A DNA stretch of 64,000 bases. It comes from Glaciozyma antarctica PI12. Lineage: Eukaryota; Basidiomycota; Microbotryomycetes; Kriegeriales; Camptobasidiaceae. The DNA lies in contig KZ627148.1 in the NCBI GenBank assembly GCA_002917775.1, forward strand, positions 1,593,183 to 1,657,182, given 5' to 3'. Below, in pieces: positions 44,456-53,217 of the stretch (its first letter is position 1; each line of letters opens with the position of its first letter). Under the pieces are notes generated by a model, which made no database searches, was not told the DNA's origin, and saw only the letters and a list, made by a program, of their open reading frames with translations. Made by a program: the position numbers and the translations under genes.

Positions 44456-47400
44456 ATGGCTCTCGACTCCAGCTCGAACACGGCAGCTCTAACAGCTAGC
44501 ACGAGCTATATCGCCGCCTCCTGCAACCGTGCTTCCAACGTAGCAGACTGCCGCCTCGAGGACGGGCTCCTTGCTTTCGGCTCCGGACACTTTGTTGCTC
44601 TCTGGAACTCCTCGGTGAGCAGCTCCTTTCGCGTTCGCTGTAGTCGAATAGCTTACCTCGCTATACGCAGGATGAGAACTCTCGGGGGATCCGTGCGACG
44701 CTCCCAGGGCATCAGGGAGACGTTTCGGTGCTCAAATTTGTCGCGAGGACGGCGGGGAGCAGCGTGTTTGTGAGTGGAGATAGCGTGGGAGTGGCGAGAG
44801 TGTGGAAGGAAGAGGATGGGAAGGTGCGCTGCTTCGTTGGGGCGGGGCGGGAGGTCCAGCTGATGTCCAGCAGTGGTCGACGTATGCGGTCTTGACGGGA
44901 CACTCTCAGTCCATCTCAGCGCTTGCGGCGCTGGAGTTGCCTGGAGGAGGGAAGGAGAGAGACTTTCTGGTGCTGACTGGGAGCTCGGACGGCTGTATTC
45001 AGTGCTGGAGGATCAGCGCAGCTGGATCAGGTGCGTTGCGACGTTGTACTCGCTGCCACCTCCGCTGATGATCTTGCTTTCGCAGAGCTCGTTCAGAAAT
45101 TCGAGTTGAAGGGAAAGCTTCCGTTAGAGCTTGCGCTAAGCTACCTTCCTGCTTCCGAAAGTGAGTGGTTTGTTCGTAACGCAGCTCCAGAAGCTGATCT
45201 CGCGAACCTCCTCAGGTCTCGTTCTCGCTGCCGGAAGTACAGAGAACCGCATTCAAGTCTACTCGAGCCCAACCGCTGGTGGGATCATCAACGTACGCGC
45301 TCTGGGATCCTATCATACTGCCATTCTGATCCCTCGTTTGCAGTTCTCCAAATCTCTCACTCTCGACGGCCACACCGATTGGGTCCGCTCCCTCGCCTTC
45401 GTCACCCCCATTCCTCTTTTCAGTACTCCCTCCACTCCCATCGACTACGACATCCAGCCCGGGGAAGTACTTCTCGCCTCCGGCTCGCAGGACAACTACA
45501 TCCGTCTCTGGCGTTTCTCCCGCCTCTCCTCCCAATCGGCGATTCCCACTCCCTCCGGTCTCGACGCACTAGACGACCTCGAACGCACTCTCGCCGAAGC
45601 AGGCGACGGCGAGCTGCGCGTAAAGGCGCACGACTTTACCGTTGCCGACGACGGGGAGTTCTCCTGCTCCTCCGAGGCCGTCCTCCTAGGCCACGACGCC
45701 TGGGTTACAGGCCTACACTGGGCCCCACCTTCCTCCTCTTCCCTCTTCTCTCTCCGCCTCCTCTCCTCCTCCGCCGATCGCTCGATGATCCTCTGGACTC
45801 CTTCTTCCGACGAAGGCTCCTCCTCCATCTGGACCAGTACGCGCCGGTTCGGCGAGTTCTCGTCGGCGACGAATTTGGGGTTCTTTGGCGCGCTGTGGGG
45901 AGAGGGAGCCAAGGGCGTGATGGCGCATGGGTGGGGAGGATCGTGGCATGTTTGGAGACAGGAGGGAGCAGAGGAGGAAGGAGAGTGGGAGGCAGTGGTT
46001 GCGGTGGGAGGGCACTTTGGAGGAGTCAAGAGCCTGGCTTGGGAGCCCAAGGGGGAGTACGTGATCTCCGCTGGGTGAGTTATCGTTTCTGGACGTAGCT
46101 GGATTGCGCTGACCGGCGCGCGAGCAGTTCGGACATGACCACCCGGTTGCATGCGCCCTGGCTTCGGGAGGTAGAATCTTCAACTGGCAGCCTGGCGATG
46201 GAGACATGGCACGGTGAGCGTCAAGCTCTCGACAGCTCCCCCTCCTTGCTGACGACAACTCGCAGAGCTCGGTCGACCTCAAATCCACGGTTATCCCATC
46301 GCCTCGGTCGCGTTCACGGATCGACTTCAGTTCGTCAGCGGTGCCGACGAGAAGATTGTGCGCATCTTCGACGCGCCGAAGGTGTTCCTTACGAGCTTGA
46401 AGATGCTGTGCGGAATCGAGGGTCTGGGAGACGAGGTCAGTCGCGCCCGCTCTTTTCGTGCGACCGTTCCTGACCCATCGCCGCAGGAATCTCGACCGAT
46501 GGCTGCGAACGTTCCTCCTCTTGGATTGTCAAATCGAGCGATTGCGAGTAAGCCGCACCGCCCTTTGCCCAACGTACCGCAGCTAACGGCGAGTATCTGC
46601 ACCCAGCATGCGCCGCAGAGGACCAACTCGTTCCTGACTCGGACGATCCGTTTGCCTCCATCCTCCCTGTCAACTTCACCGTCGCATCGCACCCACCTTT
46701 CGAGGAGCAGCTGCTGGGCTCCACGCTATGGCCCGAGGTACGGACCTTCCCGCTCTACCATCGCAGGTACTGATGTCGGCTAGCAGATCGAGAAGCTCTA
46801 TGGACACGGCTACGAGATCATCGCCCTCGCCGCGGCGCATACCCTCCCTCTCATCGCAACTGCTTGCAAAGCCACGACCGCCGAGCACGCCGTTATTCGC
46901 CTTTACGAATCCAAGACGTGGAAGCCGATGGGAGCTATCCTCGAAGGTCATTCCTTGACGATCACGAGCTTACGATTCAGCGCCAACGACCGGTATCTCC
47001 TGAGCGTGTCGAGGGATCGCTCGTGGCACTTGTTCGAGAATGTCGGAGGTGCGTAGTTCCGGCGCTTTCGGAGAGTCTGCGCTGACGGCGACGGCCTGGT
47101 TCTGCAGGCGAGTTCCGGCCTGCTGCCAACCTGAAAGCGCATGCGAGGATCATCTGGGACGGCTGCTGGGCTGCCGACGACAGCTTCTTCGTGACGGCTT
47201 CTCGAGACAAGACGGTGCGTCCTCAGGCTCTTCTCATTGACCCCGCTGACGCTCGTACTATCGTCTTAGGCGAAGATCTGGCACCTGCAAGATGACAAGT
47301 GGGTGGCAGCCGCGACGCTCAAGTTCGAGGAAGCTGCGACAGCTGTTGCGGCGACGCTTCTCCCGAATCCTGCGTGAGTCCCTTCAGGATTCGCTCCTTG

Positions 47401-47701
47401 GACTCAGCTGACATGCTGGAACACCGCAGACGCCATCTCCTCGCGGTTGGACTCGAGAACGGGCACATCCACTTGCTCACTGCTTCTCTCGACGACCCCA
47501 CTTCCTGGACTACGTACCTCGAGATCGACTCTTCGTACGTCCCTCCGCGCTCTTCAACGTTCTCAGCTCACGCGCTATCTTTCCAGCGTCGCTCATGTTC
47601 AAGCGGTCACGGCGATGGCGTTCCGACCCAAAGCGGGAACTCTCACTCTCGCTAGTGCGAGCGACGACCGTAGCGTGCGGGTGATAGAACTTGCAAGCTA
47701 G
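44456..47701 (+). CDS. ELP2: Elongator complex subunit 2 (WD40)
   Basis: ATG 44456 (MALDSSSNTAALTASTSY), about 15 exons, TAG 47699-47701. It is built of two WD40 propellers: examples are GHQGDVSVLKFVART, VLTGHSQSISALAALELPGG, SLTLDGHTDWVRSLAFVTP, LLASGSQDNYIRLWRFSR, LGHDAWVTGLHWAPP, GGHFGGVKSLAWEPKGEYV, the diagnostic TRLHAPW and TWHELGRPQIHGYPIASVAF, SGADEKIVRIFDAPK, EGHSLTITSLRFSANDRYLL and ASASDDRSVRVIEL. Elp2 is a scaffold of Elp123 and helps tRNA wobble-uridine modification in the cytoplasm. All exon joins keep frame. It is tail to tail with the kinase gene (about 100 bp). Confidence 0.93.
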
Positions 47702-47803: not shown

Positions 47804-50800
47804 TCAGACGGACAAGCTGCGACCGAAGCCTGAGCCGCCTTCGCTCCGCATCGCGCTCCTGCCACGAGGTTCGTCGACGCGAGGGTTCTTGCGAAGAACG
47901 ATCCCCCTGCGAGGGTCGTAGACTTGGTTTCGGGGCTTCTTGTACGTCTGCGAAGGGTTAGCTTGGGTGTGAGAGAGGAGCGAAAGTGGCGTACCCAGCC
48001 TTGGAAAGCGAGCTGCTTGCGTACGTCGAGGAGGTGCTCGCCTTGGACCTTGTCGCGAAGCATCGGATCCCTCGTCGCGTCGGGAGCAGGACCTCCGGGG
48101 CCAGCATCGGGAGGAGGAAGAGGGTTCTGCGACACAGAGGATTAGTAAAGCGAGCCACAAGCGACGCAACGAAAGCACGCACGTCGTCGATCTCGTCCTC
48201 AAAGTAGCGCGTATCTCCCGGCGCCGATAGCTGAGGAACAAACGGAGGAGTCTGCTGATGGATCGTCTCAAAGTCGACCCCTCGGAACCACGGATGAGCC
48301 TTGATCATCTCCGCTCCATCCGTCATGCCATTGTCGTTCGCTCCCGGCGCAATGAATCCACTCTGTCGCTGACCGACGAGGACAGAGTTGGGGCGCGAGA
48401 CGGAGACGGGCCCGCGAGAGCCGAGTCGGTCCTCGCGCTCGCAGATGAGGTTCGTGATGAGGTCCTGAGCTTCGCGCGAGATTCGAGGGCGAGGAGGGAA
48501 ACGGAGGGCAGTGCGCCAGTTCATGATCTTCTGGCGAGTGATTTGGCGGCTCTTGGAGACGAACGGAGGGTAGCCACTGCGAGAGAGAGTCCTTCGTCAG
48601 TCACCGTTCACGATGTACGCTGGAAGAGACGTACTAGAGCATCTCGAACTGCGAAAGAGGTTCGTAAACGACGGGAAAGGTTTCGAAAGTCATAGCGACG
48701 CACCATGATGACTCCGAGACTCCACCAATCGCACGCCTGATCGTATCCCTTGCCACGAAGCACCTCGACAGACTGCGCCGAGAAAGTGCATCAGCGCAAC
48801 CCCATTCCGCACGACGGTAACTCACCATGTAGTTGTTCGTCCCAACGACGGAATAAGCGAGCTTCCTCCTGTTCTTGTCCCTCCACGTCAAGATGCTCCC
48901 CGGCGCCTCCTCCGATCCTCGCATCATATCCTGATCGAATCTCGTCGTCGCAGGCGCATGATTCCCGTCCTCGAGGTCGATACCGTGCTTGTGAAGGAGC
49001 TCGCTTCGCTGCTGCTCGTAGTACTGACCGTCGTGCGCCCAGTGGAACTGTGAGAGGTGGTTCAGCGAAGCTCGAGAGGAGTGGAGAGGCGGACGAACGT
49101 CGGTGGCGAGACCGTAATCGCTGATGGCAATGTGGCCGTTCTTGTCGAAAAGGAAGTTGTCGGGCTTGATCTGCGTGAGGAGGAGTTAGCCGTCCGCTCC
49201 ACTCTCGACGCCACCTGCAAAAAAGCTCACGTCGCGATGAATAGCTCCAAGGACCTTGTGAGTTTCCTCAATCGCCAGGACCATCTCGGAGATGTAGAAC
49301 TTGGCGAAAGATTCCTCGAAGACGTCCTTTTCGATGAGAAGCGTGAGCAGATCTGCCAGCAAGTCATCAGCGAGTGTTCTCACGCGAGCGAAGGACCACT
49401 CACCGCCGCCACTCATGAAACTCATGACGAGATAGAGATGATCCACGTCCTGGAAGGAGTAGGCGAGGCGAACTGTCCAGCGCGTGCTCGTCGCTGCGGT
49501 GGCGAGGAGGTCTCGCTCGGCGCGAACGTGTCCCTCTTGTCCCTTCCTCAGCATGCTGATGGAGCGAATCGTCAGCGGGAGCAGTTCGGAGGCAAGACGA
49601 AAAAGACGCACTCGGCCTTGCGAAGCTGCTTCATCGCATAAAGCCTGCCGAGCAACTCTTATCAGCAAACAACTCCCACAACCAGCCCTCGCAACTCACT
49701 CTCCCGTCCCTCTCTCCTTGACCAAACTCACGACGCCAAAGGCGCCATGCCCGATCGTCTTGAGCTTGACAAACGAGCCGACATTGACGCGCGTCCTCAG
49801 ATCGCGCAAGTACTCGGTCTCGCTGAGCGCCCAAGCCGCCCGTACGTTCCGACGCTCCGCGTCCGAGATATTAAGTCGGCTGAGCTCCTTCTCGAGCAGG
49901 GCTTTGCGTTGGTCTCGGTCGCGAGGTTTCTTGAGGAGGCCGTGGTAGAGTGTCTCGAAGTAGACCTGCACGACGGACGTAAGTTCGCGTTTCGGCTGCA
50001 GGGGACACGCTCAAAACGAACCTTCGTAGCGACAGCTTTCTCGACTGCAGAGAACGAACGAGGTTAGCCGAGCTCTCAACAGCTTCGCAGCGAACTCACT
50101 CGTCGTAAGCGACGGAACAAAGTTCCTCGGCGCCCCAAAGTCGATCCCAGAGTCTCCCACCTCCTCAAAGGGCTCATCAAACGCCACTCCCGACCCCTCG
50201 AGGTCCAACGGCGTCCTCCCCTTCGCAGGCGCCCTCGTCGTCCCCTTATCCAGCACGCTCTCCGCCGTGTCCGTCCTCTCCAACCCCGGAAACACGGGCG
50301 GACGCAGCTCATCCTCCTCCGGTAGCGATTCGAGCTCCCCACCATCTTCGACCGCTTCGACGCTCGCGACGCTCACGCTCAGAGTCGACGGAAGGCCATT
50401 GACGACTTTGAGACTGCCGACGTCGCGGTTCGCTTGAACTTCAGCAACGGCTCGAGCGCGGGCGCGGGCGCGGGCAGCTTCCTTGATAGGCTGTACCCAG
50501 CCGGGTTCTGCGAGAGGTGGTCAGCGGGGGAGAAGGGAGCGAGGAGGGACGGACGGACGGGCGAGTTTACCGACGCCGTCTTGGGACCAGCGGCGGAGGA
50601 TGTCTTCGGCTTGTTCGGCGTCCGAGGCGTGGCAGAGGTGGCTGGGGAGAGGGAGGAGAGGGCGTTAGGAGCGGTTCGAGAGGGTGACTGCATACATGCT
50701 CCTCCGAGGACCGGTTTCGCGCCTGGTGAGCTGTCTTCCCCTCCTCGACACGCTCAGCAACGCGTCGCTAGTCACCTAGCGTACGTCCAGCCCTCCTCCA

Positions 50801-51626
50801 GTCCCCCTCCAGCCGCTCGCACCAAAGCCCAACCTCCTCCCCATCGACCACCTCCTCCTCGACCCGCCGCAAAACAACAACACCCTGAAGCGAAGACTCA
50901 CCTAAAGTTCCCCGGCCTCCCAATCATATCGATACTGATCCTCTTCTTCCCCATCACCTCCCCCACCAACGCAGGACTCGTCACACCCCTCCTCTCCCCC
51001 ACCATCGCCGTCCTCCCTCTCTGCTGCCCCTCCGCGCGTCCCAAGCACCCTCCATCAAAGTCCTCCTCCCCCAGCGTCGAAGGAAACGCCGGTGCAGCTC
51101 CATAGAACCTCGACCCGGTCGCGGAGAGGATGTTCCAGAAGCCGCTGTGGACCATGATGCTCGAGCTAGTCGACAGGGGGACTTTGGTCGTAGCTGCTGA
51201 TTGAAGAGGAGGAGAGCGGGAGGGCATAGCGCCTGGTGGAAGGCGCTGAGGGGAGGAAGGAGGGGAGTAGGCGGTCCGGGAGGTGAAGGGGGGCAGCGGG
51301 ACGGCAGGAGAGGGGCTTAGGTTTGGCGAAGGGGGAGTAGGGAGGGGAGGCCGCTTCGGAGCGTACAGCTGCGTTCCACTTCCTCCTACGAAGAAGGTCG
51401 ACCCGCGCCCGATCGTGGGAGAGGCGTAGGGGATCCAGTCTTGAGGAGGGTGAGAGGGAGGTCCCGACGCGAGGTTGGAGTACGGGAACGCGGCGTGCGC
51501 ATTCTGGGGCGAGCTGATGGGCTTCTGGGGCTTGAGGGTCGAAGAGGGGCCGTACGAGTTTGGGTAGGGAAGTCGGTTGGCGGAAGGAGGGGTTGGGAGA
51601 GGAGGTCGTTTGGTCGTGGGTTCCAT
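47804..51626 (-). CDS. NDR/LATS-family kinase with N-terminal CRIB (p21-Rho-binding) motif
   Basis: ATG 51626 is the first ATG in the open first exon (to 50902). Residues 1-225 are Pro/Ser-rich with two copies of KRPPLPTPPS (residues 6-15 and 91-100). At residues about 230-265, across an intron, is a CRIB/PBD motif: ISIDMIGRPGNF-SHLCHAS then EQAEDILRRW. Exon 2 is 50641-50571. Exon 3 runs on in frame (EPGWVQPIKEAARARARARA to NFVPSLTT) and joins the NDR N-terminal regulatory region (VVQVYFETLYHGLL, SETEYLRDLRTRVNVGSF). The kinase domain has GHGAFGVV, YAMKQL, AIHRDIKPDN, SDYGLA (DYG for DFG), a long insert before AYSVVGTNNYMSVEVLRG, and the C-terminal hydrophobic motif FQGWTYKK. It likely acts in morphogenesis or polarity under Cdc42/Rac control (inference). 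Stop 47804-47806; about 1,000 residues. Confidence 0.85.
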
Positions 51627-52157: not shown

Positions 52158-53217
52158 ATGACCGCCTCAAACGACCTCCTCCGCCAGAAGCTGCAATCAG
52201 CGCGATCCGTCGTCGTCCTCGCAGGTACGTCCTCTCCCCCACGCGTTCTTGCGCAACCGTACGGCGGCTCACCCCGCCGAGCAGGAGCTGGGCTGTCTAC
52301 CGCCTCGGGTCTAGCAACGTTCCGGGGACCTGGAGGACTTTGGAGAACGTACTCTGCTTTGTCCCTCGCGACTCCCGAGGCGTTCAGCCAGAACCCAAGT
52401 CGCGTCTGGGAGTTCTGTACGCCTCTTCCTCCCTTCCTCCTTCCTCTCCTAACCCATTTCATACAGACGAATACCGCCGACAAAAGTGCGCTCATCCCTC
52501 CTCTTATTGACCGCGCTAACACCCAGCAGAGCCCTCCAAGCCACCCCTACCACCGCCCACACCCTCCTCGCGCGCCTCTCCCTCCCCTCCCTTCGCCACC
52601 CCCTCCTACCCACATGCGAATCCTTCACCCTCATCACCCAGAACGTCGATTCCCTCTCTCTGCGCGCTCTAGCCTCCCTCGATACCGAGGCCAGAGTGGA
52701 GGAGAGCATTATCGAGATGCACGGCTCTATCGTCCGGCCGCGCTGTAAGAAATGTGGTGTCGTAGACCACGAGCGGGGGGAGAGTATGACGCCGTTATGC
52801 GCTGCACTCGAGGGGGTGGTAGAGCGGGTGGAAAGCGGGGAGAAAAGATTAGAAGATTGAGAGGAAGGACTTGCCGCGCTGTGGAGTGCGGAGCTGTGGG
52901 GGTTTAATGCGCCCTGGGATCGTTTGGTTCGGCGAGAGTCCAGAGAGGATGGAGGTGTGTGGGAAGGTGCTTGAAGGGGCGGACGTTTTGCTTGTGGTGG
53001 GGACTTCAGGGACGGTACGTCCTTTCGCGTTGGAGAGCGAGGTGGAGCTGATTTGACGAAGCAGGTCTATCCGGCTGCGGGATTTGCGGCCCAGGTCAAG
53101 AAAGGTGGAGGGATTGTAGCGGTATTTAACCTCGAAGGGAGCGAAGGAGACGAGGAGGCGGATTTCGTCGTTTTGGGCAAGTGCGAGGAGACGCTTCCCG
53201 CGCTATTCGATCTGTAA
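52158..53217 (+). CDS. Sirtuin, SIRT5-like NAD-dependent protein deacylase
   Basis: ATG 52158 ([20 protein letters not shown]), TAA 53215-53217. Motifs: [20 protein letters not shown] (NAD binding), [48 protein letters not shown] (catalytic His and first Zn pair), [20 protein letters not shown] (second Zn pair), [20 protein letters not shown] and [12 protein letters not shown]. The Y-x-x-R in YEYRR matches the SIRT5 residues that prefer succinyl/malonyl/glutaryl lysines. No strong mitochondrial presequence is visible from this start. The frame breaks around 52836-52860, between VESGEKR and the second Zn pair; either one base is wrong or a very short purine-rich intron is present. Other joins keep frame. 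Confidence 0.83.

Follow-up and report, generated by a model that had tools for sequence, protein, structure and literature searches.

A minus-strand gene joining an NDR-type kinase to an N-terminal CRIB-like motif in Glaciozyma antarctica PI12

In fission yeast, the NDR kinase Orb6 has been reported to act on Cdc42, with the exchange factor Gef1 as intermediary (S. pombe; available part of PMC5011436). Additional kinases of this type have been described in other fungi. The text available of PMC3591445 presents STK-21/An-Stk21/PUK1 as an extra NDR kinase of ascomycetes with CBK1 as its best hit, and the accessible portion of PMC4817773 describes edited UAGUAG codons in subdomain IX of the STK-21/PUK1 class, which become UGGUGG. 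Excerpts of two further papers describe a second CBK1-like protein of 488 aa in Magnaporthe (MGG_09519; PMC9765699) and two CBK1 orthologues with no DBF2 in the basidiomycete Wolfiporia (PMC5030230). As to Cdc42/Rac-binding (CRIB) motifs in kinases, DMPK kinases with PH and CRIB have been described (available part of PMC1420674), and Kosti et al. count PBD among the domains in the kinomes of all fungi in a passage that names no kinases (excerpt of PMC2838846). For the STK-21/PUK1 class, the available portions of PMC4817773 and PMC3591445 make no mention of a CRIB ('crib' occurs 0 times in that of PMC4817773). A literature search, with most subscription journals and sequence databases outside its reach, found no description of a CRIB in an NDR kinase.

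Here we analyse a gene within the window, by which we mean the whole 64,000-nucleotide stretch of contig KZ627148.1 under study. Our main reading, to which we assign a probability of about 0.6, is that this single gene would encode a third, divergent NDR kinase with a disordered N-terminus bearing a CRIB-like motif, through which a GTPase would recruit it. The architecture itself is real: its kinase half is solid, and its CRIB half is plausible but sub-threshold.

A single gene of fifteen exons

The original prediction had given the gene the coordinates 47804..51626, and these proved exact, with the ATG at 51626, the end of the stop codon at 47804 and 0 internal stops on the minus strand (Table 1). 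The three joins it had named as in-frame GT-AG sites were reproduced as 50902/50641, 50571/50507 and 50100/50044, across introns of 260, 63 and 55 nt. Intron 1 is the long one, the other 13 of 14 measuring 47-63 nt, and CTRAY branch-site matches lie upstream of the acceptor in 11 of the 14, introns 1-3 included (at 17-27 nt). As a separate observation, a long intron that cuts the CRIB core could permit alternative splicing to a motif-less form.

Table 1. Features of the gene by window position
Feature	Position	Strand	Description
Whole coding span	47804..51626	-	15 exons, 948 aa; all 14 introns GT..AG, frame intact
Exons 1-5	51626-50902, 50641-50571, 50507-50100, 50044-50022, 49965-49700	-	
Exons 6-10	49644-49612, 49555-49404, 49352-49231, 49170-49099, 49047-48826	-	
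Exons 11-15	48772-48704, 48648-48635, 48576-48183, 48126-47995, 47947-47804	-	
Exon 1	50902..51626	-	P/S-rich N-terminus; terminates within the CRIB core
KRPPLPTPPS, copy 1	51582-51611	-	aa 6-15
KRPPLPTPPS, copy 2	51327-51356	-	aa 91-100
Intron 1	50642..50901	-	260 nt; falls within the CRIB core, following ..RPGNF; branch-site match CTAAC at 27 nt before the acceptor
CRIB-like motif	50623..50948 (50948-50902 + 50641-50623, intron 1 between)	-	KKRISIDMIGRPGNFSHLCHAS, aa 227-248
NDR N-terminal regulatory (Mob-binding) region	49783..50044	-	aa 402-470; from exon 4 into the beginning of exon 5
AGC/NDR kinase domain	48276..49782	-	about aa 471-826; Pkinase 1.1e-52, 179.5 bits (cut-off 31.7)
Hydrophobic motif	47936..48006 (48006-47995 + 47947-47936)	-	FQGWTYKK, aa 898-905, Thr902

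Given that small stand-alone CRIB proteins such as human SPEC/CDC42SE exist, exons 1-3 might encode a small CRIB-like protein of their own and the NDR kinase might be a separate downstream gene, the two having been misread as one. However, all that separates the CRIB exons from those of the kinase is intron 3, 55 nt long with a branch site at 23 nt. Moreover, the exon-4 frame extended upstream offers no ATG before it is closed by a stop at 50066, indicating that the kinase cannot simply begin at exon 4; in a two-gene arrangement its N-terminal region would be left without a start of its own. We therefore regard two genes as very improbable and the minus strand of 47804..51626 as almost certainly one gene, as originally claimed, in a single model whose 14 joins keep the frame.

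Codon preference, trained on the kinase part, gave the annotated frame 0.36 bits/codon at residues 230-300 and 0.27 at residues 301-401, and this test is weak because the reverse strand scored 0.22 and 0.25 by the same measure and residues 1-229 just 0.05. Better evidence that exon 1 is coding is its duplicated peptide KRPPLPTPPS, whose two copies are written with different codons at 7 of 10 residues, every change falling at the third position, a selection-like pattern. When the 241-aa exon-1 protein was shuffled, a repeated 9-mer arose in 0 of 20,000 shuffles. The pair has the appearance of a short binding motif that was duplicated, and we take the PPLP inside it to be of the WW-ligand type; a role as SH3 ligand was considered and rejected, the class I pattern being absent. 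Genome-wide, RPPLPTPP returned 6 matches (2 of them from this gene) versus 2 for a reversed control, so the four other places are not above chance. A side observation concerns one of these four, at C16:2121419, where the peptide falls in a 447-codon frame shortly before a cysteine pattern that looks LIM-like by eye.

Residues 1-229 hold 43 P and 31 S, and the 400-residue N-terminus ahead of the kinase is disordered. When the region before the CRIB-like motif was compared with the gene's own genome, the one match besides itself was weak (C8:209935, E 0.048), had the look of noise when read and was not retained as a paralogue.

Two genes were seen to flank the coding span, both on the plus strand: a convergent WD40 protein gene at 46253-47701, with its final ORF ending at 47701, and a divergent SIR2-family gene at about 52284-53053. 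In Pfam searches, the first WD40 piece scored over cut-off and the other two under, while all three SIR2 pieces (3/3) scored over. With both flanking genes on the other strand, no third gene boundary is left in between.

An NDR-type kinase beside Cbk1-like and Dbf2-like genes

Residues 402-905 make up an NDR kinase including its Mob-binding region and hydrophobic motif, followed by a C-terminal tail. Its motifs comprise GHGAFGVV at 481, Lys503, Glu522, HRD at 598-600, DYG at 618-620, the basic insert RDKNRRKLAYS ahead of the activation segment, and Ser690 as the serine of that segment. It departs from the usual pattern in having DYG for DFG and NNYMSVE for PDYIAPE, so that SVE stands in the place of APE; with Lys503, Glu522, Asp600 and Asp618 in place, the kinase is predicted to be active. 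The hydrophobic motif aligns with Cbk1 F-x-G-Y-T-Y at the edge of the solved-chain alignment, and Pfam Pkinase_C scored 14.4 bits, under its cut-off of 20.9.

The top three of 223 solved-chain matches (E <= 1e-30) were yeast Cbk1 twice (3.4e-106 and 1.3e-105; 359.1 and 357.2 bits) and human STK38 (5.5e-89; 302.3 bits), with the MRCK-beta chain behind them (6.6e-67; 229.5 bits). Sequence identity is 51-52% to the Cbk1-like kinase of the same genome, yeast Cbk1 and STK38, and 48% to MRCK-beta. When residues 394-477 were compared with solved chains, all six matches at E <= 1 were Cbk1, STK38L or LATS1, and 20 of 62 positions are identical to STK38L. The six positions that we take to be Mob contacts, following NDR1 numbering (K/Y/R/R/T/R), are all kept (6/6). 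The original prediction had contrasted the CRIB with Mob binding, noting that NDR kinases normally bind Mob proteins and lack a CRIB; with the Mob-contact residues conserved, Mob binding is no alternative to a CRIB here.

The 48% identity to MRCK-beta raises the possibility that the kinase belongs instead to the MRCK/DMPK group, AGC kinases in which, as in MRCK, the CRIB lies at the C-terminus together with a coiled coil. Tree support does not separate it from MRCK: in a tree built from spliced models (8 sequences, 315 columns), the node joining the two had a support of 0/38, and an earlier, noisier tree from stitched matches (FastTree) placed the kinase beside Dbf2 with 0.89. By contrast, the NDR N-terminal region is present in the window kinase and missing from MRCK, Cbk1 and STK38 exceed MRCK by at least 70 bits, and the motif sits before the kinase, all of which make an MRCK/DMPK affiliation highly unlikely. 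Nor is the kinase a PAK, its domain being AGC/NDR and not of the STE20 group. The NDR assignment is thus drawn from the N-terminal region and the motifs, not from the tree; with Cbk1 and STK38 as best solved-chain matches and an N-terminal region that matches NDR/LATS alone, the kinase is predicted with great confidence to be of NDR type, which upholds the family originally named.

In the same genome, a Cbk1-like gene (C1:819 kb) is 73% identical to yeast Cbk1 and 51% to the window kinase, and a Dbf2-like gene (C14:665 kb), located with a composite query, is 42% identical to it. By these comparisons the window gene is a predicted third, divergent NDR kinase of this genome. Potential partners are also encoded: three Mob-family loci (C3:1996 kb, C1:453 kb and C1:397 kb) and Cdc42/Rac-like GTPase exons (found with a human query). 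Two PBD-bearing PAK-type places are present in this genome as well. No relatives of a 94-aa kinase piece were confirmed among the 3 and 42 pattern matches in collections of viral and genome contigs; these collections are without fungi, and the result is therefore silent on conservation of the kinase or the motif.

The CRIB-like motif at the first splice junction

The core of the motif, I-G-R-P-G-N-F-S-H-L-C-H (aa 235-246), is preceded by KKR-I-S. Compared with the CRIB core I-[SG]-x-P-x2-F-x-H-x2-H-[VM]-G, every position is kept through the second His, and V-G is replaced by A-S. Core and lead together resemble N-WASP KKKRLTKADIGTPSNFQHIGHVG (8s5t) and the WASP-like CRIB of the same genome, GKKGGISKSMIGAPSGFNHVAHMG.

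We considered whether this likeness could be a chance or decayed match within the disordered N-terminus of a third NDR kinase controlled solely by Mob and upstream kinases. Several results point in that direction. The Pfam PBD profile (PF00786; gathering cut-off 21.3 bits) scored 12.2 bits with residues 1-401, 15.2 with a 70-aa piece and 15.0 with the 28-aa core, all under the cut-off, and PBD was not listed in the search with the full 948-aa protein; the motif is accordingly not filed as a PBD member. In the same 70-aa piece the unrelated family DUF7939 reached 15.4 bits by chance, under its own cut-off too. The PBD match ends at position 20-22 of 59, the C-terminal hairpin/helix extension of PAK and WASP being absent. 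A search of solved chains with the CRIB region gave 8 weak matches, among them N-WASP at E 0.5, which was outranked by 6 of the 7 others, four of these six being designed PPR proteins. In a small CRIB matrix built from six known cores, the core scored 12.7, well under the 23.0-43.7 of known CRIBs each left out in turn (n=6).

Other results speak against a chance match. The top score among 92,529 16-mers of the unspliced six-frame window was 6.9 in the same matrix, and the score of the core was reached by 1 of 3000 shuffles. When residues 1-401 were shuffled 200,000 times, the pattern I[SGA]xPxxFxHxxH arose 0 times. In addition, the motif is restored exactly across a splice junction and carries the KKR lead of N-WASP-type CRIBs. 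Calibration also bears on the Pfam shortfall: trimmed cores of the gene's own genome scored 16.2 bits for WASP (24 aa) and 22.0 for PAK (22 aa), of which the latter passes, and with extensions the scores were 32.6 for WASP, 44.2 for N-WASP and 87.4 for PAK. This indicates that the PBD shortfall comes partly from the missing extension and partly from A-S replacing V-G.

Searches of the gene's own genome were also made. A whole-genome PBD search returned four matches at three places, and the motif described here, split by intron 1, is not among them; the CRIB region found its own three exons as sole matches. An unspliced scan, which is blind to an intron-split core, found no CRIB core in the Cbk1-like and Dbf2-like loci (best 6.0 and 4.5), with WASP as control at 47.6, itself in the training set of the matrix. 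A tblastn comparison with the WASP locus (E 0.001; one chosen 5-kb locus, composition correction off) was discarded and is not used as statistics because proline-rich chance matches there score better (to 8e-8).

Taken together, the evidence on the CRIB-like motif is mixed, and it is plausible but sub-threshold. Of the original claim of a CRIB, the core stood, whereas the PBD score fell short of the Pfam threshold, which is one half of the refuting condition set there for the CRIB, V-G had given way to A-S and the PAK/WASP extension was absent; the Pfam search that it had proposed for PBD plus kinase placed Pkinase over its cut-off, and PBD under in the pieces of the protein that gave a score. 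We regard a chance or decayed likeness as the less likely reading, with about one chance in three, and judge it somewhat probable that aa 227-248 would bind a Rho GTPase.

Proposed recruitment by a GTPase and comparison with known systems

In the reading we prefer, that of an NDR kinase recruited by a GTPase, GTP-bound Cdc42 or Rac would bind the core and bring the kinase to membrane sites of polarity or growth. A Mob protein would bind aa 402-470, an upstream germinal-centre kinase would phosphorylate Thr902, and autophosphorylation at Ser690 would complete activation. Since the PAK-type inhibitory extension is absent after the core, the GTPase step is likelier to be mainly recruitment than release from autoinhibition. 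Recruitment by active Cdc42 or Rac is the most likely account, with the binding of the GTPase itself inferred, and the direct connection originally suggested between a Rho-type GTPase and an NDR kinase is plausible. We give roughly even odds to the broader proposal that the NDR kinase may itself be a Cdc42/Rac effector, which the GTPase would recruit via the N-terminal CRIB and Mob would activate, so that polarity switch and morphogenesis kinase would reside in one molecule.

If the motif works, cell polarity would be wired directly to an NDR kinase. Given that Orb6 acts back on Cdc42 via Gef1, an NDR kinase recruited by Cdc42 or Rac would permit a direct feedback loop, and it would reverse or close the arrow from NDR kinase to Cdc42 of fission yeast (available part of PMC5011436). 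How NDR kinases come to be placed at sites of growth would then become a testable question.

The window kinase has in common with Cbk1, Orb6, COT1 and STK38 the Mob-binding N-terminal region, the basic insert, the Ser690-equivalent and the hydrophobic-motif Thr; unlike them, it adds the CRIB-like motif and the 400-residue N-terminus, and shows the DYG and NNYMSVE replacements. STK-21/PUK1/An-Stk21 of filamentous ascomycetes, with NCU03242 and AN10485 as members and compared by description, is likewise an additional AGC/NDR kinase, and the UGGUGG edit of that class would fit the D-W-W of the window kinase. With WASP and N-WASP it shares the lead and core KKR-I-S-x-x-x-I-G-x-P-x-x-F-x-H-x-x-H; after the core, however, A-S-D-A is found here and V/M-G-W/F-D there, with no hairpin extension here. 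PAK (Ste20/Cla4) similarly carries a CRIB ahead of the kinase, whereas the window kinase is AGC/NDR, not STE20, and is without the autoinhibitory extension. MRCK, of the DMPK family, is likewise an AGC kinase linked to a Cdc42-binding motif, but the position of the CRIB and the accessory domains differ and MRCK is without the NDR N-terminal region. If our reading is true, there would be two AGC lineages in which a Cdc42-type motif is joined to the kinase, metazoan MRCK/DMPK and that of the window kinase.
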